From Bifidobacterium boum (GTDB lineage: Bacteria > Actinomycetota > Actinomycetes > Actinomycetales > Bifidobacteriaceae): a stretch of 64,000 nucleotides of DNA. Where the stretch lies: positions 124,001 through 188,000 of the forward strand of contig NZ_JGYQ01000007.1 of NCBI RefSeq assembly GCF_000741535.1, read 5' to 3'. Both the position numbers and the translations under genes were made by a program. The notes beneath the pieces were generated by a model. That model searched no databases and was not told the DNA's origin. It saw only the letters and a list, made by a program, of their open reading frames with translations. This document shows, piece by piece, positions 40,543 through 48,543 of this stretch (within the stretch, counting starts at the first letter, position 1; the number at the start of each line of letters is the position of its first letter).

Positions 40543-41211
40543 ATGGAATACACCTCACCGTCATCGTTCACCGCAGCATGGTCTTACATTGAAAACCATG
40601 CATTGGAACGGCAATCCCCCGCTCTTCAGGAGGCGCGCCTTCGTGCCGCCGAAGCGGGATTGCCACAAAGCTCAGCCGCACAGACAGCACTGCTGGGGGC
40701 TCTCGCCCGTTGGATAGACGCGACATCGGTGATTGTCATCGGCACCGGAACCATTGTCGAAACCATACAGCTTCTTGACGCCCTTGGCGAGCGTGGACAA
40801 GTAACCACCGTTGATTCATCCGTGCAAGGCATCGCCCTGATCCGCACCCTGCTGCGTGGCGTCCCGGACGGCACCCAAGCGACTTTGCGGGCGGTGAACG
40901 CGCCAGCCCACGTGTTCCTCCCTCGATTGAACGCAGAAGATTACGATCTTATCGTCGTTTCCGGCGATGCGGACAACTATCCTGCGGCGTATCTTCAAGC
41001 ACCGCGGCTGTTGAAGCACAGCGGCATGGTCGTATTCACCGACATGCTCGCGCTCGCCCGGCAGGAGGACGACGGGGTGCTTGACCCGGATAACCACAGC
41101 AAGAAAGCCGATATTGTGCGGCAATTGCTTGACGATGTCGAAGCGGATGACCGTTTCGACAGTACGCTCACCTTCAGCGGGACCGGTCTGCTGCTGGCAC
41201 GAAAACGCTGA
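40543..41211 (+). CDS. Class I SAM-dependent O-methyltransferase (family 3)
   Basis: This 222-aa protein resembles the Methyltransf_3 group found throughout actinobacteria. SSAAQTALLGALARW, SVIVIGTGTIVETIQLLDALG, TTVDSSVQGIALIRTLL and YDLIVVSGDADNYPAAY are the motif I, II and IV regions. The glycine-rich loop reads VIGTGTIVET, slightly different from the common EIGTGxGYS. The catalytic metal ligand region is less clear. The acceptor is unknown. ATG at 40543 is chosen; ATG at 40528 is also in frame. A strong terminator follows 7 bp after the stop. Confidence 0.78.
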   Translation: MEYTSPSSFTAAWSYIENHALERQSPALQEARLRAAEAGLPQSSAAQTALLGALARWIDATSVIVIGTGTIVETIQLLDALGERGQVTTVDSSVQGIALIRTLLRGVPDGTQATLRAVNAPAHVFLPRLNAEDYDLIVVSGDADNYPAAYLQAPRLLKHSGMVVFTDMLALARQEDDGVLDPDNHSKKADIVRQLLDDVEADDRFDSTLTFSGTGLLLARKR

Positions 41212-41218
41212 CACTCCA

Positions 41219-41259
41219 GCTCCGGCCGGCTTGCACATGATATACAAGCCGGCCGGAGC
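41219..41259. terminator. Bidirectional terminator, 15-bp perfect stem
   Basis: GCTCCGGCCGGCTTG pairs with CAAGCCGGCCGGAGC around an 11-nt loop between the convergent methyltransferase and LOG genes. Confidence 0.7.
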
Positions 41260-41296
41260 CTGCCTTAGACGCATCACGTGCAAGTCGTTCACACTG

Positions 41297-42076
41297 TCAG
41301 CGCCCGCCGAGCGCCATATCCACCGCCTCATTCGCATCATCAGTGAACCGTACCAAATGCGGGTCAAGCGGCGAAATCATATGCCGCTCCTCAACCGTTG
41401 TCGTCACCCAGTCAAACAGCCCACGCCAGTAAGCCGTATCGAACAAGACGATTGGCATGGATTTGACCTTGTGCGTTTGGACGAGCGTGAGCAGTTCGAA
41501 CATTTCGTCCAGCGTGCCGAAGCCGCCGGGGCAGACGATAACACCCGACGAGTATTTCATGAACATGGTTTTGCGTACAAAGAAGTACCGGAAACTCATC
41601 CCGAGATTCACCCACTCGTTGAGCCCCTGCTCATGCGGCAGTTCTATACCCAAGCCGACCGACTTGCCGTTCATCTCGCAAGCGCCACGGTTCGCGGCCT
41701 CCATAATGCCCGGCCCTCCCCCGGTGATGACCGCATACCCGGCTTTGGCGATTCTCCCGCCCATAATCCGCGCAGCATGGTAGGCAGGATCATCACGGGA
41801 TGTGCGAGCGGATCCGAACACGCTGATCGCCGGGCCGAGTTCCGCGAGCGCGCCGAACCCGTCGACGAATTCCGCTTGGATGCGCAGCACTCTCCACGGA
41901 TCCATATGCAGCCAGTCGGTAGGCTGGTTTTCGCGCAGCAGATTCGCAGTGGCGCTCTCTTCGGGGATCATCCGGCCGCGCAGCATGACCGGGCCGGACA
42001 TATAGGTCATTTGATCGTCCGTCTCGTCTTGGCTGGTTTGCGATGCCGGTGTCGAAGGTTCCGTCATATCTGTCAT
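41297..42076 (-). CDS. LOG family nucleotide phosphoribohydrolase-like protein
   Basis: This 259-aa Rossmann-fold protein carries AISVFGSARTS, the GGGPGIMEAANRGA motif and the catalytic PGGFGTLDE motif of the LOG (lonely guy) family. Members cleave nucleoside 5'-monophosphates to the free base and ribose phosphate, and in plants release cytokinins. The bacterial role is unsettled. An N-terminal extension of about 45 residues is acidic and disordered-looking. The nhaA stop lies 33 bp upstream on the same strand, so co-transcription is likely. Confidence 0.88.
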   Translation of the reverse strand: MTDMTEPSTPASQTSQDETDDQMTYMSGPVMLRGRMIPEESATANLLRENQPTDWLHMDPWRVLRIQAEFVDGFGALAELGPAISVFGSARTSRDDPAYHAARIMGGRIAKAGYAVITGGGPGIMEAANRGACEMNGKSVGLGIELPHEQGLNEWVNLGMSFRYFFVRKTMFMKYSSGVIVCPGGFGTLDEMFELLTLVQTHKVKSMPIVLFDTAYWRGLFDWVTTTVEERHMISPLDPHLVRFTDDANEAVDMALGGR

Positions 42077-42109
42077 CGGGGTACGCTCCTTACGTACGTG
42101 GTAGGTGGA

Positions 42110-43504
42110 TTATTGCTGATGGGTGGCATGATCATGCTTGTCCGGGAACAGCGTGCTGCTGACGACTTCCGTACCATCAGACAGCACACTGACAGCTTCC
42201 GCGGTTGCATCCTGATCACGCACCGGAAGGGTTGACGTTTGCGGAGCGGACTTGGCGAGTTGCTCATACTTCTTGGATTGTCGGCTGAGCAATATGCCGG
42301 ATATCACCGCAGCCAGCAAGGATGCCATCAGCACACCGAATCGCGCTTCAGCAGACAATTCGGCATCCTTGTAGGCGAGTGTCGCGATCAGGAACGACAC
42401 GGTGAAACCAATGCCGCATGCGCAGGCCGCCGGGAATAAATCCCGAACGTGGAGCCCTTTCGGCATACTCAACCCTGTGAAACGCGTCGACAACCATGCG
42501 GTAAGCATGATGCCTAACGGTTTGCCGACGACCAAAGCCACCACAATGCCGATGACAATCGGCGACACGAACAGCAGCGCGGACAGTGAGCCGAGATGCA
42601 CGCCCGTGGCGAACAGCGCGAAGATCGGCAACGCCAGCAGCGCCGAGAACGGCTGCAACTTGTCATGGTAGCGTTCCGCCCGAGGAGACGCCTCGCCGTA
42701 CATTTCCCTCGCCGGAGTGAGCAACCCCACCAGCACACCGGCGAGCGTAGGATGGATACCCGCTTCGAACATCATGACCCATGCGAGAATGCCGACGGCC
42801 CCCACCGCCAGCCATGGCACGCGCTTGCGGCGAACCAGCAGATACCAAGCGACAGCGCAAGCCGCGATGCCAAGGAACCAATACCAGCCGTTGAGTGAGG
42901 AGAAGAACACGGCGATCAGAATAATGGCCAGCAAATCATCGACCGTGGCGAGCGTCATCAGGAACGCCCTGATCGACCCTGGCAACGCTTTGGCGAACAA
43001 GGCGAGCACGGTCAGCGAGAACGCGATATCCGTAGCCGTCGGGATCGCCCATCCGTGCGATGCCGTGCCAAACGGTACGACAGCACCAGTCGCGATGGTC
43101 ATACTGCCGGCAGCCGGCGGCGCAAACTGCGAGTACAGGCTGATCACCGCGATGAACAGGATCGGCGGAACCAGCATGCCTCCCACAGCGCACAACATCG
43201 GTACGGCCGCCGCTTTGGGATTGGCCAGCGAACCGGTGGTCAGCTCCTGTTTGAGATCCAAACCGACCATGAGGAAGAACACCGTGAGCAGGCCATCCTG
43301 TGCCCAGTGGCTGATCGGCAGAACCAGATTGGTGCCGGGGATGCCGATGGTGTATTCGGCTACAGCTTCAAACCCGTGGAAGGTCCAAGGCAGGTTCGCG
43401 AGCAACAAGCCAAGCAGCGCGAAGCCGAGCATAATCAGACCGGATATGCGATCGGAGGCGGCAATGCGCCTGATAGTTGTCCAAACCCCGCGTCGTTGTG
43501 TCAT
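42110..43504 (-). CDS. nhaA: Na+/H+ antiporter NhaA
   Basis: The 464-aa protein has about 12 membrane helices. IPTATDIAFSL and TVDDLLAIILIAVFF carry the conserved Asp residues that bind Na+ and protons in NhaA; WAQDGLLTVFFLMVGLDLKQEL and FEAGIHPTLAGVLVGLL are further hallmarks. It exports Na+ or Li+ in exchange for protons. A C-terminal hydrophilic tail of ~65 residues ends DKHDHATHQQ. The ATG at 43504 follows GGAGCGAT. It is followed by the LOG gene after 33 bp. Confidence 0.93.
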   Translation of the reverse strand: MTQRRGVWTTIRRIAASDRISGLIMLGFALLGLLLANLPWTFHGFEAVAEYTIGIPGTNLVLPISHWAQDGLLTVFFLMVGLDLKQELTTGSLANPKAAAVPMLCAVGGMLVPPILFIAVISLYSQFAPPAAGSMTIATGAVVPFGTASHGWAIPTATDIAFSLTVLALFAKALPGSIRAFLMTLATVDDLLAIILIAVFFSSLNGWYWFLGIAACAVAWYLLVRRKRVPWLAVGAVGILAWVMMFEAGIHPTLAGVLVGLLTPAREMYGEASPRAERYHDKLQPFSALLALPIFALFATGVHLGSLSALLFVSPIVIGIVVALVVGKPLGIMLTAWLSTRFTGLSMPKGLHVRDLFPAACACGIGFTVSFLIATLAYKDAELSAEARFGVLMASLLAAVISGILLSRQSKKYEQLAKSAPQTSTLPVRDQDATAEAVSVLSDGTEVVSSTLFPDKHDHATHQQ

Positions 43505-43660
43505 ATCGCTCCTTCGTCAGTCCATGCTTGGGCATTCGGCAAAACCATACAGCACCATTGTAAAAAATCGTGCGCTGCTTGTTCCGCCCGGAGCTGACAC
43601 CGGTGTGTTTGGCGCGATGTGAATGCCCGTCGCGGCGAATGGCTCGGAAACGGGATTCGG

Positions 43661-44517
43661 TCATCTGCACTTGCGTTCATCATGAATCTGACGCGCAATC
43701 GCTTTACCCTGATCGTCGACGAGATATTTTTGCCGCGGCATCGCGTGTTTCCTGTGACTCATTCGGATCGTTGATGACTGGTATCACTGCGGAATTCAAG
43801 ACCTGCTCATTCGCACCGAAGAAGAGAACCGCGTAAGCGCTCGTCACACCCTCATAGCGGTCACCTGCGATGATGGGTTCCGTGGTTCCGCATGTGATGA
43901 GCATCGAACGATGCGATAGCTCATGCTTGACGGTAGCGAGAAAATACAAGTGGGACAACACATCGGGATAACTTGTAATCGCAGTATTGACATAGAACTT
44001 ATCACGGTTCGTTCTGTCACTTGTATCGCATTGTCATAGACGATTTTCGATTGCTTCGTTACGGCTTCATGCTCCTTGATCTGCCGGTTTTTCGCGGCAA
44101 CGGTACCCACCGCAAGTACCACAAATGCGGCAACAAGCACGATGGCGATAATGGCATTGGCGTGTGATTTCCGGGGATGTGACGCGTTGAGCAGGCATGC
44201 GGTAAACGGGAGCCGGCCGAAAACCCGGAATCGAATAGGGGCCTGTGGACGGTATCGCGTGATTCTGGAGTATAGGATGTGGAGGAACGCGGCGTGATGT
44301 GGTTGACGGTGGAAGCGCTGTAGGAACCCGTCGGCCTTGGTGCGGGACGTTGCGGCATTGCGGAATCTTGTGGTCGCATTGGCAGCGGTGGCATTGCCGG
44401 ACGTTGCGACGGCACTGGTTTTGCTGCTTGGCCTTGCGGCATTGCAGGAATCCCGGAAGTTCCAGAATGGGGCTGGTCGGGATAAGGGGCGTGTGATGGT
44501 TCTGGTGTCGGACTCAT
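43661..44517 (-). pseudogene. Pro-rich single-pass membrane protein gene broken by four frameshifts
   Basis: From the ATG at 44517 the frame encodes a Pro/Met/Gln-rich tail (MSPTPEPSHAPYPDQ). The sense then moves to a second frame near a G4 run at 44238-44241 (PYSIPGFRPAPVYRMPAQ), to a third near 44170 (KSHANAIIAIVLVAAFVV, a membrane helix, then a charged coil), shifts again near 44005 (RDKFYVNTAITSYPDVL), and again at a T5 run at 43727-43731 (YLVDDQGKAIARQIHDERK), ending with TGA at 43661. The pieces suggest a ~280-aa protein: Pro-rich cytoplasmic N-terminus, one membrane helix, extracellular domain. Decay is likely; systematic homopolymer sequencing errors would look the same. I do not recognise the extracellular domain. 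Confidence 0.6.
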
Positions 44518-45041
44518 AGACGATCCTCGTATCCTTCCTCAGACAGATGGGCTCCGTCGCTTCGCTGCTGGTCGATGCTTTCGCCGCGCCCCGAGCAGTA
44601 TCCCGGGATGTCGTTCTCTTCTTGCGTCGATTATCTTCGATGATTCCTTGATTATTGGAACCGAACCCGCAATGCATGTGGCGCATGCTTGCAGTCAATT
44701 TTCCGAGCATTCTCGATCGCTCCACCGCCGGACACACATGTGTGTCTATATCTCCCGTTGTGGGAGATTCTCCGCGAATCGGCAGCTTAGTTGTAAAGTC
44801 CCGTGGTTTCGTGGGAGTTCATCGAGGATTTACGGTTTCTAGGGTGTTCTCCCGTCGGCGGTTTCAAGGGCGATTTTCAGGAACCGCGGATTTCCAACGT
44901 TCCCGTTGGGACAATATCCGCAAGGACGCCGGATTCCCGCAAACTCCCACGCCGGATACGGGAGAACAGGCACGAACCGGGAAATCCCGACAGTTCTCCC
45001 GCATCATCCACACGCCACCGCCCCAATCCCAGCCTCCCCTG
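44518..45041. other. Gene-poor region with many short TCCC/GGGA inverted repeats
   Basis: No gene is supported. From about 44740 short inverted cores recur every 20-30 bp, for example CTCCCGTTGTGGGAG, TCCCGTTGGGA and GGGAAATCCC, plus GTAAAGTCCCG and CAAACTCCCAC. The sequence CCACCGCCGGACACACATGT at 44722 recurs in similar form at 45380 (24 of 29 bases over a 29-bp stretch). Confidence 0.45.
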
Positions 45042-45203
45042 CCTCCACCGACACCGACAACCACACCAGCATCAGCAGACACCTCCACCGACACCGACGG
45101 TAATCCCAGCGTCAGCAAACGCTTCTGACGACGCTGACGGTTACCCCAGCATCAGAGCAGACGCCTCTGCCGACACTGACAGCCGGCTCAGCGTCGGCAG
45201 ACG
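45042..45203. repeat. Four tandem ~40-bp repeats, same family as 2478-2557 and 55988-56036
   Basis: Units are 45042-45081, 45082-45121, 45122-45163 and 45164-45203 (40, 40, 42, 40 bp). Each has the pattern CYTC-N-GACRCTGAC, a variable centre, then CAGCRTCRGCARACG. The fourth unit folds on itself (TCTGCCGACACTGA with TCAGCGTCGGCAGA). The first two units are more diverged in the left arm. No protein frame fits them. Confidence 0.75.
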
Positions 45204-45448
45204 GTTCTGGCGGGCGTATAAGGGAAAAGGGGAAACGGCCGCATCGCAATCGTGATACAGGATTACAGGAATGCTACCGGGGCGGCTCCGCTGTCGAGCC
45301 AGGATTCCGTATCCGCAACAGGCACGTCGGATAGTCGACAACGAAGTCCACAGCACCACGTTTCCCTATACGCCCGGCCCCACCACCGGACACACGTGTT
45401 GGCCTATAACCCCCATAACCCGATTCCACGGTGGTGGGCGACGAAACA
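45204..45448. other. Intergenic tail between the repeat cluster and the tRNA terminator
   Basis: No gene is seen. The interval contains the second copy of a CCACC-CCGGACACAC-TGT sequence at 45380-45408. It lies downstream of tRNA-Arg. Confidence 0.35.
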
Positions 45449-45451
45449 CAA

Positions 45452-45475
45452 AAGCCCTCGGGATTCCGAGGGCTT
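45452..45475 (-). terminator. Rho-independent terminator of tRNA-Arg
   Basis: AAGCCCTCGG and CCGAGGGCTT form a perfect 10-bp stem with a GATT loop, followed on the minus strand by TTTTGTG, 5 bp past the tRNA 3' end. Confidence 0.8.
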
Positions 45476-45480
45476 ATCTG

Positions 45481-45554
45481 TGCGCCAGACAGGATTCGAA
45501 CCTGCAACCTGCTGATCCGTAGTCAGCTGCTCTAATCCATTGGGCTACTGGCGC
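45481..45554 (-). tRNA. tRNA-Arg (anticodon ACG)
   Basis: On the minus strand the 74-nt sequence folds as a cloverleaf: acceptor GCGCCAG/CTGGCGC with discriminator A, D arm AGCCCAATGGATTAGAGC, anticodon stem GCTGA/TCAGC with loop CTACGGA (anticodon ACG), and T arm GCAGGTTCGAATCCTGT. CCA is not encoded. It reads CGU/CGC codons after A34 deamination to inosine. It lies downstream of clpX on the same strand, but with its own terminator. Confidence 0.93.
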
Positions 45555-45682
45555 ATGTGCTTTCTTCGCGCTGATTGCTCAGCTCGTTTCCGGCAACTCC
45601 ATTACTATACAGCACGCCTCCCGGAACGCCAACTTACGGCGTGTCGCCTTACGGGACAAGGGTTGGGCCTTGTCATCGTGTC

Positions 45683-47125
45683 TTATGCCCGGCGCGGACC
45701 ATCACGGTGCGCATCATCATCAGAGCGAACAATGGCGATATCGGCAGTCGGCGCGCCATCATCCCCGCCGACGACGCTCAAGCGCATCCGTTCACGCACA
45801 TCCGAAAAACGCTGACCGGGCGCCAATGGGATAGGCCTGCCGGTCCCGTCAATGGCGTCGGCGTCGACAACCACGCGCGCGACATCCCGCCATTGCGGCA
45901 GGTCATACATCGTATCCTCGAGCGCGCGTTCGATAATCGACCGCAATCCCCTGGCACCAGTTCCCTGACGAATCGCCGTCGCCGCAATGGCTTCGATCGC
46001 CGCCTGCGTGAAATCAAGACGAACCCCATCAACCATGAACAGTTTCTGATACTGCTTGATCAGCGCGTTCGACGGATCGGTGAGAATACGCTCAAGGTCT
46101 TCCTGTCCCAACGCGTGCAAGGTGGTGATCACCGGCAGTCTGCCGATGAACTCGGGCAGCAAACCGAATGCTTCCAAATCGTCGGCGTTGACTTGGGCAA
46201 GCAACTCATCGCCTGTCAGCTCAACATCATGCCAGGATGCGCTGAACCCGCTCTCGTGGGCGCCGATTCTTGACGCGACAATATCCGCCAGTCCCACGAA
46301 CGCGCCGCCGCAGATGAACAGAATGTCACGCGTGTCGATGTGCACGCTCTCCTGCTCACGATGTTTGCGCGTGCCTTCCATGGGTACGGTTGCGACCGTG
46401 CCCTCAAGGATTTTCAGCAGCGCCTGTTGAACGCCCTCGCCGCTGACATCCCGTGTGATTGACGTGTTCTCCCCGCTCTTGCGGGCGATCTTATCGATCT
46501 CATCGATGTAGATGATGCCGTGGCGAGCCCGTTCGATATCACCGTCCGCCGCTTGAATCAGCCGTTGCAGCACAGTTTCCACGTCGTCGCCGACATACCC
46601 GGCTTCCGTTAACGTGGTCGCGTCAGCGATGACGAATGGCACGTGCATGACATGGGCGAGCGTCTGCGCCAAATATGTTTTCCCGACGCCCGTCGGTCCG
46701 AGCATGAGAATATTCGATTTCGCCACACGCACATCGGCAAGCGGGTCAGGCAGCCGGCTGACCTTGCCGGAGCCTTGCAGGCGTTCCAACTGCTCCTTGG
46801 CCGAGCTTGCAGCGGACTCCTGAAGCTCCATGTTCACGCGCTTGTAATGGTTGTACACGGCAACCGACAGTGTCCGCTTCGCCTCGGGCTGCCCGATGAC
46901 ATACGTATCAAGGTATTGTGCGATCTGTGCCGGCGTCGGCACTTCGAGTGCATGATCGGCGGCTTCGCGGCGCTGCTCCTCCCCGATCATATCAACGCAT
47001 AGGGCGATGCATTCATCGCAAATAGCTACACCAGGACCGGCGACGAGTTTGCGTACCTGTCGTTCGGTTTTCCCGCAGAACGAGCATTGCTGGATATCAT
47101 CCTGATAGCTGATCACTCGGCTCAT
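45683..47125 (-). CDS. clpX: ATP-dependent Clp protease ATP-binding subunit ClpX
   Basis: The 480-aa AAA+ unfoldase starts with a zinc-binding domain, Cys14, 17, 36 and 39 (CSFCGKT through CDEC). Walker A is [12 protein letters not shown], Walker [14 protein letters not shown], and the RKH-like and sensor regions follow ([15 protein letters not shown]). It delivers tagged proteins to ClpP. It is longer than E. coli ClpX by about 55 residues, partly in the C-terminal tail after the lid domain. It lies 116 bp downstream of clpP2, in the same direction, and may be read from the clpP promoter or its own. GGAGC precedes the ATG. Confidence 0.95.
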
Positions 47126-47241
47126 AACAGCTCCTTCGTGCGGTCAACGACTGTGATTCACGGCTTGGAACACCTCATAACGAGCATACCCCCAACGTTG
47201 CCGTCGGGGGTATGTCTCGCGTAATTACAGTTTCCTGCGGC

Positions 47242-47913
47242 TTACTTGCGCGGGGAAAGCACAGCGTCGACCATGCCGTACTCTTTGGCTTCCTCAGCCG
47301 TCAGGAACGTATCGACTTCGATGTCCTTGCGGATCTTCTCAACGTCCTGCCCGGTGTGCTTGGCCAGGGTTGTCTCCAACCATTCGCGCATACGCAGCAT
47401 TTCCTTGGCTTGGATTTCGATTTCCGTAGCCTTGCCGAAGCCTTGGTCAATGGAGGGCTGGTGGATAAGCACACGCGCGTTCGGCAGAATCATGCGCTTG
47501 CCCTTGGTGCCGGCGGCAAGCAGAATCGCCGCCGCGGAAGCCGCCTGCCCCAGACACACGGTCTGTACATCCGGCTTGATGTACTGCATGGTGTCGTAAA
47601 TCGCGGTCATGGCTGTCATCGAACCGCCGGGTGAATTGATGTACATCATCACATCGCGATTCGGGTCTTGGCTTTCCAACACCAGCAGCTGGGCCATGAT
47701 GTCATCAGCCGACGTGTCGTCAACCTGCACGCCCATGAAGATGATGCGATCTTCAAACAGCTTGGTATACGGATCCTGCGTCTTCATGCCGTATGGCGTC
47801 CGCTCGCTGAATTGCGGCAGCACATACCGGTCCTGCGGCTGGTAGCCTCCGATGCCCTGAGGGCCGGCCAGACGCTGGGCGCGCTGGACGAATCGTGCCT
47901 CTTCACTTGCCAT
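47242..47913 (-). CDS. clpP2: ATP-dependent Clp protease proteolytic subunit ClpP (second copy)
   Basis: This 223-aa serine protease has the nucleophile in CLGQAASAAAILL, the His in RVLIHQPS, and the Asp in RKDIEVDTFLTAEEA, the ClpP catalytic triad. [19 protein letters not shown] is the oligomer handle region. Its N-terminal extension of ~25 residues (Arg/Gln-rich) may be a propeptide. The ATG lies 3 bp past the clpP1 stop codon with GGGAG upstream, so both are co-translated. In actinobacteria ClpP1 and ClpP2 form a mixed tetradecamer. Confidence 0.94.
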   Translation of the reverse strand: MASEEARFVQRAQRLAGPQGIGGYQPQDRYVLPQFSERTPYGMKTQDPYTKLFEDRIIFMGVQVDDTSADDIMAQLLVLESQDPNRDVMMYINSPGGSMTAMTAIYDTMQYIKPDVQTVCLGQAASAAAILLAAGTKGKRMILPNARVLIHQPSIDQGFGKATEIEIQAKEMLRMREWLETTLAKHTGQDVEKIRKDIEVDTFLTAEEAKEYGMVDAVLSPRK

Positions 47914-47916
47914 AGG

Positions 47917-48543
47917 TCACTCCCCCTTCGCCGTGTCGGAGTTCATCGTGCCCGGCGTGGTCACGATCTTGTCGACGAAACCATAATCCAACGCCTCCTG
48001 GGCGGTGAACCAGTGGTCATACTCGTTGTCTCGGTAGATTTCCTCAACCGTGTGGCCGGTCTGCTTGGCGGTGAGCTCGGACAGGGTCTTCTTCATGTCC
48101 ATGATGAGTTCCGCGTTGATGCGCACATCGGTGGTGGTGCCGCCGATTCCGCCGGACGGCTGGTGCATGAGCACACGCGCATGCGACGTGATGAACCGCT
48201 TGCCCGGCGTGCCCGAGCTCAGCAGGAACTGCCCCATGGAAGCGGCCATGCCGACCGCCACCGTGGCGACATCAGGCTCGATAAGCTGCATGGTATCGTA
48301 GATCGCCATACCGGCGGTGATGGAACCGCCAGGCGAATTGATGTACAGCCAAATGTCTTTCTTCGGGTCCTCTGCCGCGAGCATGAGCATCTGGGCGCAG
48401 ATGACGTTCGCGTTGTCATCCTTGACTTCAGAGCCCAACCAGATGATGCGGTCCTTGAGCAGCCGGTTGAAAATCGGGTCGGTTGGCCCCGCCGGCATGT
48501 CCTCGCCGGCCATGACGGGCAGGATTGCACTGGAATTGCTCAA
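47917..48543 (-). CDS. clpP1: ATP-dependent Clp protease proteolytic subunit ClpP (first copy)
   Basis: This 208-aa protein carries the catalytic Ser in [15 protein letters not shown], His in [10 protein letters not shown] and Asp in [29 protein letters not shown]-like and [19 protein letters not shown] segments match ClpP. It is first in clpP1-clpP2-clpX. AAGGAGAC precedes the ATG. A near-consensus ClgR-type box lies about 70-80 bp upstream, and a terminator separates the gene from trigger factor. Confidence 0.94.

Follow-up and report, generated by a model that had tools for sequence, protein, structure and literature searches.

The minus-strand locus at positions 43661–44517 of the window, the 64,000-nucleotide stretch of the Bifidobacterium boum genome analysed here, is best explained as a recently inactivated gene, a reading to which we give a probability of roughly 0.93. 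The ancestral product would have been an anchored protein of about 503 aa carrying gluzincin-type residues, and the copy in the window is broken by four lesions. The gene is intact at the same place in the sister, Bifidobacterium thermophilum JCM 1207, a conserved motif is retained in one piece of the remnant, and the flanking genes are intact. The features of the region, all on the minus strand, are listed below; the lesions are from pairwise alignment.

42110–43504: downstream flanking gene, open frame, no indel relative to the sister; we take it to encode an nhaA-type Na+/H+ antiporter
43661–44517: pseudogene, the remnant of a Pro-rich surface protein of 503 aa with one helix and an HExxH motif (compared with the intact orthologue L010:4789-6300 and L011)
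43727–43731: lesion 4, a single-base insertion in an A run (TTTTT on the plus strand)
43851–43853: codon for Glu, matching the conserved downstream residue E441 of the orthologue and presumed to supply the third zinc ligand (from the frame and relatives)
43911–43925: HELSH, the HExxH motif of the C-terminal piece, not in frame with the start codon (from the frame and relatives)
Between 44020 and 44021: lesion 3, 646-bp deletion (orthologue nt 508–1153, residues 170–385)
44093–44164: remnant of the single transmembrane helix (orthologue residues approximately 121–145; from the frame and from helix prediction and hydropathy of the orthologue)
44173–44176: lesion 2, a single-base insertion in a C run (GGGG on the plus strand)
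Between 44325 and 44326: lesion 1, 11-bp deletion (orthologue nt 193–203)
44326–44517: N-terminal Pro-rich segment, whose 64 codons, counted from the start, keep the original frame
45481–45554: upstream tRNA gene, probably tRNA-Arg, as its counterpart in L043 is tRNA-Arg (acg) and L087 is 94.5% alike
45683–47125: upstream flanking gene, open frame, no indel relative to the sister; presumably clpX

The remnant and its lesions

The stretch from 43561 to 44560 was read in the three minus-strand frames, and the lesions were placed by a MAFFT alignment of the minus strand of the window with the JCM 1207 gene. The remnant extends from a start codon at 44517–44515 to a stop codon at 43663–43661 with four frame changes between them, and each of the four is a disabling lesion when compared with the intact orthologue. 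The start codon now opens a frame of 152 aa in which only the first 64 codons follow the original frame; the departure precedes the helix, so that no anchored or catalytic product would be expected. The frame containing the C-terminal piece is 85 aa long. The remnant may well have no function at all, and the decay may be fixed in the species.

An initial annotation, made from the sequence of the window, had described a gene with four frame changes, as the alignment with the 503-aa orthologue bears out, but had placed three of them at homopolymers where there are two (GGGG at 44173–44176 and TTTTT at 43727–43731). The G4 run at 44238, given as one of the shifts, is unchanged and the real break is the 11-bp deletion, 87 bases earlier in reading order. 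The pieces that had been followed are present, but the stretch from 44325 to 44238 was already in the wrong frame. The third change had been taken as a point shift and is the 646-bp deletion. As that deletion is invisible from the window alone, the intact product had been estimated at about 280 aa, rather than the 503 aa seen in the sister. The C-terminal HExxH domain, the part most telling on function, had been missed.

The intact orthologue and its neighbourhood

In JCM 1207 the gene is a single open frame of 503 aa (JGZV01000004.1, L010:4789-6300) located, as is the window copy, between clpX/tRNA and nhaA. The window copy, in contrast, has four frame-breaking lesions and lacks residues 170–385. 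When named genomes were scanned with the 85-aa frame, the one relative found was JCM 1207 (L010), with 94% identity over residues 1–78 of that frame, and the pieces are thus protein-coding in origin, as had been proposed, and not chance frames. Genome G119 (L011) yields the same 503 aa and agrees with L010 across 1,700 bases surrounding the gene, the two compared stretches overlapping only in part. The two were counted as one genome, which supplies the only intact orthologue available at this place.

In G046, which belongs to the same group but is less closely related (nhaA 81% identical), no homologue was detected between nhaA and the tRNA-Arg gene (tblastn, 1e-5), and therefore the gene was either gained at this place by the pair formed by the window and its sister or lost in G046. 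The corresponding interval in G118 is at a contig end and is outside the comparison.

Architecture and motif of the parent protein

The orthologue contains 31 Pro in residues 1–122 and one strongly hydrophobic segment at approximately 121–145 (highest 19-residue hydropathy 3.08, starting at 125–126), followed by a helical region and a C-terminal domain. This agrees with the earlier description of a Pro-rich, single-helix surface protein, although the Pro-rich part is not present in the relatives L012-L014 and L016-L018. In the ancestral protein so reconstructed, some 120 aa of Pro-rich cytoplasmic N terminus would lead through a single membrane-spanning helix and a helical stalk to an exported C-terminal domain of roughly 160 aa. 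This domain would have carried the residues of a gluzincin-type zinc metallopeptidase, namely HExxH and a Glu 23–28 residues from the first His. In the window copy the frame was broken by the 11-bp deletion and the two single-base insertions, and the 646-bp deletion took away the beginning of the C-terminal domain together with most of the stalk.

HExxH with a downstream Glu is the ligand pattern of gluzincins. H417, E418 and H421 (HExxH) and E441 of the orthologue are invariant in all 27 rows of an alignment of relatives (A2), as are C428, P433, Y447, G453, Y483, A493, H497 and C502, and the spacing from the first His to the Glu was 23, 24 or 28 in each of 23 rows examined. The complete pattern is present in the aligned rows, and the exceptions (L058, L055 and L063) are outside the alignment. 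L063 ends soon after HEPAH and L055 has Asp at the Glu position. L058 (G085:C3:58985-59839) has a long open frame of 626 codons in which HExxH is lost, and is possibly a non-catalytic member. A profile of the C-terminal domain (A3), which includes the sister orthologue, finds the window piece with an E value of 1.2e-27 over positions 47–141 of 150. The likeliest reading, in which we have reasonable confidence, is that the parent works like a membrane-tethered zinc peptidase; zinc binding, peptidase activity and the topology are predicted.

Predicted structure and database comparisons

The C-terminal domain alone was modelled with a mean pLDDT of 89.4 and a pTM of 0.85. In this model (positions numbered from A3) the HExxH residues H76, E77 and H80 are found on a helix at 68–87 and the Glu, E100, on the next helix at 93–111. 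The model of the whole protein had a mean pLDDT of 63.6, and its fold matches were set aside as they fell on the low-confidence helical part. Foldseek with the domain alone gave no match at E ≤ 0.001, an absence that proves nothing. In a second-look structural alignment over the 113 best Foldseek chains, all scores of the entries named here were below the trusted level. The top row was 6i89 (Z 5.3, rmsd 3.8, 112 aligned), and 6bh8 (Z 4.5, rmsd 4.6, 111 aligned) and 6oiu (Z 4.4, rmsd 3.8, 127 aligned) were also recovered, with three lethal-factor entries (Z 3.4–4.3) and 2oc2 (Z 2.7, rmsd 4.5, 125 aligned) lower down. We take these to be ArdC of R388 (6i89), ZMPSTE24 (6bh8), aminopeptidase N (6oiu) and ACE (2oc2), and all of them, including the lethal-factor entries, to be zincin-like metallopeptidases.

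Neither the 503-aa orthologue nor the 85-aa frame of the window had a credible match in Pfam (one weak row, E 0.11) or any in NCBIfam. Matches of the 27 A2 rows were taken as chance in each library. Those in Pfam were scattered (best E 0.011). In NCBIfam the best was 0.00048, for one member with a mevalonate-pathway enzyme, and the family with most A2 members took in six of the 27 (best E 0.022). In PADLOC the best was 0.00036, with two members. There was no PHROGs match at 0.01 in the 23 members of A3. Seven rows up to E 1 were obtained with the profile against PDB sequences, and the best, a keratin at 0.0045, was taken as low-complexity helix. A search of plasmids gave no DNA match at 1e-5. 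The literature searched, including passages of PMC5561799 (on the B. thermacidophilum/thermophilum group), contained nothing on the locus or the family.

Indels and substitutions in the remnant and its flanks

Indels and substitutions were compared in the same two assemblies over window positions 41003–48500. The five flanking genes, presumed to be part of clpP2, clpP1, clpX and nhaA together with the gene at 41297–42076, contained no indels in 584+672+1443+1395+780 = 4,874 aligned bases. The four frame-breaking indels of the remnant fall in 855 aligned bases (Fisher p 5e-4 against the flanks), and the non-coding stretch at 44518–45682 has four in 513 aligned bases. Indels are therefore building up in the remnant as in non-coding DNA. 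One further indel, of 2 bases at 41224, is outside the five genes. Substitutions were found at 34 of 855 positions in the remnant (4.0%), compared with 1.5–2.2% in the five flanking genes and 3.9% and 5.1% in two neighbouring non-coding stretches.

The comparison of synonymous with nonsynonymous change that had been recommended in the initial annotation was made with Nei-Gojobori counts on the window and sister pair. The remnant has a dN/dS of 0.40 (bootstrap 0.19–0.89; 281 codons, 15 synonymous and 19 nonsynonymous), compared with 0.06 for clpX, nhaA, clpP1 and the 41297 gene pooled (1,425 codons, 69 synonymous and 13 nonsynonymous; singly 0.01, 0.24, 0 and 0.06, respectively). The ratios of nonsynonymous to synonymous change, 19:15 and 13:69, differ (Fisher p 3e-5) and the remnant, taken as a whole, is thus under relaxed constraint relative to its working neighbours.

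The signal is uneven along the remnant. The first 64 codons contain one synonymous and five nonsynonymous changes and the next 100 codons contain three and nine, giving a dN/dS of 1.1–1.8 in these two N-terminal pieces from few differences, a value that functional copies too may show in a segment of this kind. The C-terminal 117 codons contain 11 synonymous and five nonsynonymous changes (dN/dS 0.12). The N-terminal and C-terminal pieces differ (14:4 versus 5:11 nonsynonymous to synonymous, p 0.014), and between the C-terminal piece alone and the flanking genes there was no significant difference (p 0.16). In the 281 codons compared no substitution has created a stop, which is weak evidence of recency since 34 substitutions would be expected to yield few. 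With the low dN/dS of the C-terminal piece, this makes the loss look recent. The mark of selection that appears to persist in the C-terminal domain would reflect either recent loss or the sister's branch, two possibilities that a single pair does not tell apart.

Among the residues absent from the window copy are positions conserved in the 27 aligned relatives (A2), with E320 invariant and G279, G348, C362 and C381 at least 90% conserved, and the 646 bp were therefore lost by the window copy.

Distribution and recurrent decay of the family

The 85-aa query matched 27 of 112 Bifidobacterium genomes, at 32 places, and a 432-aa paralogue used as query matched 29 of the 112. The domain profile found members in 33 of 189 Bifidobacteriaceae genomes, in two of 16 genera, and the other 156 had no match at E ≤ 0.001. 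The homologues that the initial annotation expected among bifidobacteria thus exist, and a complete lack of them, named there as grounds for rejecting its reading, is not borne out. Among 394 genomes drawn from the class, that of B. boum included, only the B. boum genome was matched by the profile.

At 28 of the 32 places the open frame is at least 384 codons, and at the other four (the window, G012, G007 and G087) it is at most 260 codons. In G012 (L005) the Pro-rich and helix part is in one frame and the catalytic part in another, G007 (L006) has two in-frame stops and reads HGLAH, with the catalytic Glu replaced, and in G087 (L022) the pieces are in changing frames, as judged by eye. In the domain-profile search five of 40 places had frames of at most 260 codons, the fifth being a weak match in G069. 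With four of 32 places having a short frame, the decay of this gene appears to be recurrent in the genus.

Tentatively, and with slightly less than even confidence, we propose that these proteins make up an undescribed family of membrane-anchored, surface-exposed gluzincin-like peptidases seen so far only in Bifidobacteriaceae, patchy in distribution, sometimes duplicated or transferred and repeatedly inactivated. If so, such a pattern would be in keeping with fluctuating selection on a surface enzyme, such as might act where the cell meets its host or phages. The pseudogene itself matters little. The interest is in a parent family with no credible match in Pfam, NCBIfam, PADLOC or PHROGs, with what looks like the active site of a zinc peptidase and with a distribution both patchy and marked by decay, which bears on whether gut commensals display a membrane-tethered peptidase.

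A second family member in the same genome

The B. boum genome contains a second, intact family member, the 432-aa paralogue (G000:C18:121978-123273, L047). At the protein level it is 95% identical to G046:C6:700-1995 and 80% to G118:C4:322-1584, and all three are near contig ends. It is likely that the paralogue was transferred or is located beside repeats. The region containing it shares 91.8% DNA identity with G046 over 2,871 bp, and because nhaA is only 81% identical between those genomes, transfer is suggested. In the sister G119, a single family member was found with the 85-aa frame, the 432-aa paralogue or the domain profile as query.

Alternative explanations

The initial annotation had left a choice between very recent decay and sequence error. 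Decay, probably recent, stands, and an error of sequencing or assembly in a gene that is truly intact is a poor explanation. Short homopolymers with one base too many account for two of the four lesions, and the assembly is a draft in 18 contigs, but the 646-bp and 11-bp deletions are not homopolymer errors and error is disfavoured both by them and by the absence of indels from the 4,874 flanking bases; the raised dN/dS of the remnant also argues against it. We consider error very improbable. Programmed frameshifting or phase variation, in which the breaks would be regulatory and a functional product would be made or could be switched on, is if anything less probable still. The C-terminal piece retains the motif residues and a dN/dS of 0.12, a value for which constraint that preceded the loss, or that acted along the branch of the sister, is an equally good explanation. 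The runs, however, are short, no more than 4 and 5 bases long, the gene occupies a single frame in the sister, and the 646-bp deletion is irreversible and takes residues conserved in the family. Error, programmed frameshifting and phase variation were rejected on these grounds.

That the loss was tolerated because the intact 432-aa member took over would be a cause of the same decay and not an alternative to it. The presence of the intact copy here and of a single member in the sister, along with the apparent transfer of the paralogue region, is in keeping with such a takeover. However, identity between the two proteins is no more than about 36% in the aligning part of the C-terminal domain, and the 156 Bifidobacteriaceae genomes in which the profile finds no member indicate that loss may need no substitute. 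We regard a takeover as unlikely. Inactivation of the 503-aa protein by the four lesions remains the preferred reading, and the decay is ordinary, and probably of a recent and recurrent kind.

A dispersed repeat upstream of the remnant

A 640-bp stretch upstream of the remnant (window 44756–45395, core approximately 44795–45040) is absent at this site in the sister. It contains a dispersed non-coding repeat with at least 48 matches in the B. boum genome (40 of 101 first-look candidates scored). Of 19 matches touching the core, nine are located within 600 bases 3′ of a tRNA gene, all in the same orientation, and ten are not; at most 1.3% of the genome lies within such a distance. Among the tRNA types seen nearby are Phe, Leu and Ala. 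Within the genus, any match was found in six of 112 genomes and long ones only in the B. boum genome (G000), G119, G046 and G118. Apart from the tRNA, Rfam gave no match. A long hairpin is predicted in the repeat, with double changes in five of 43 pairs and an unfavourable covariation term. Four diverged 40-base units, spaced 40–42 bases apart and 63–78% like the first, are found at window 45042–45203 and overlap a stretch that recurs at many places in the genome on both strands.

Comparison with known systems

No credible sequence similarity was found between the parent protein and ArdC, ZMPSTE24, aminopeptidase N or ACE, and the Z scores are too low for a shared family. Like the gluzincin-type zinc metallopeptidases, the parent has HExxH and a downstream Glu, its function here being predicted from sequence and model. 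The remnant shows nothing unusual when compared with bacterial pseudogenes formed by indel decay, and likewise has several disabling indels, relaxed constraint and an intact orthologue in the nearest relative.
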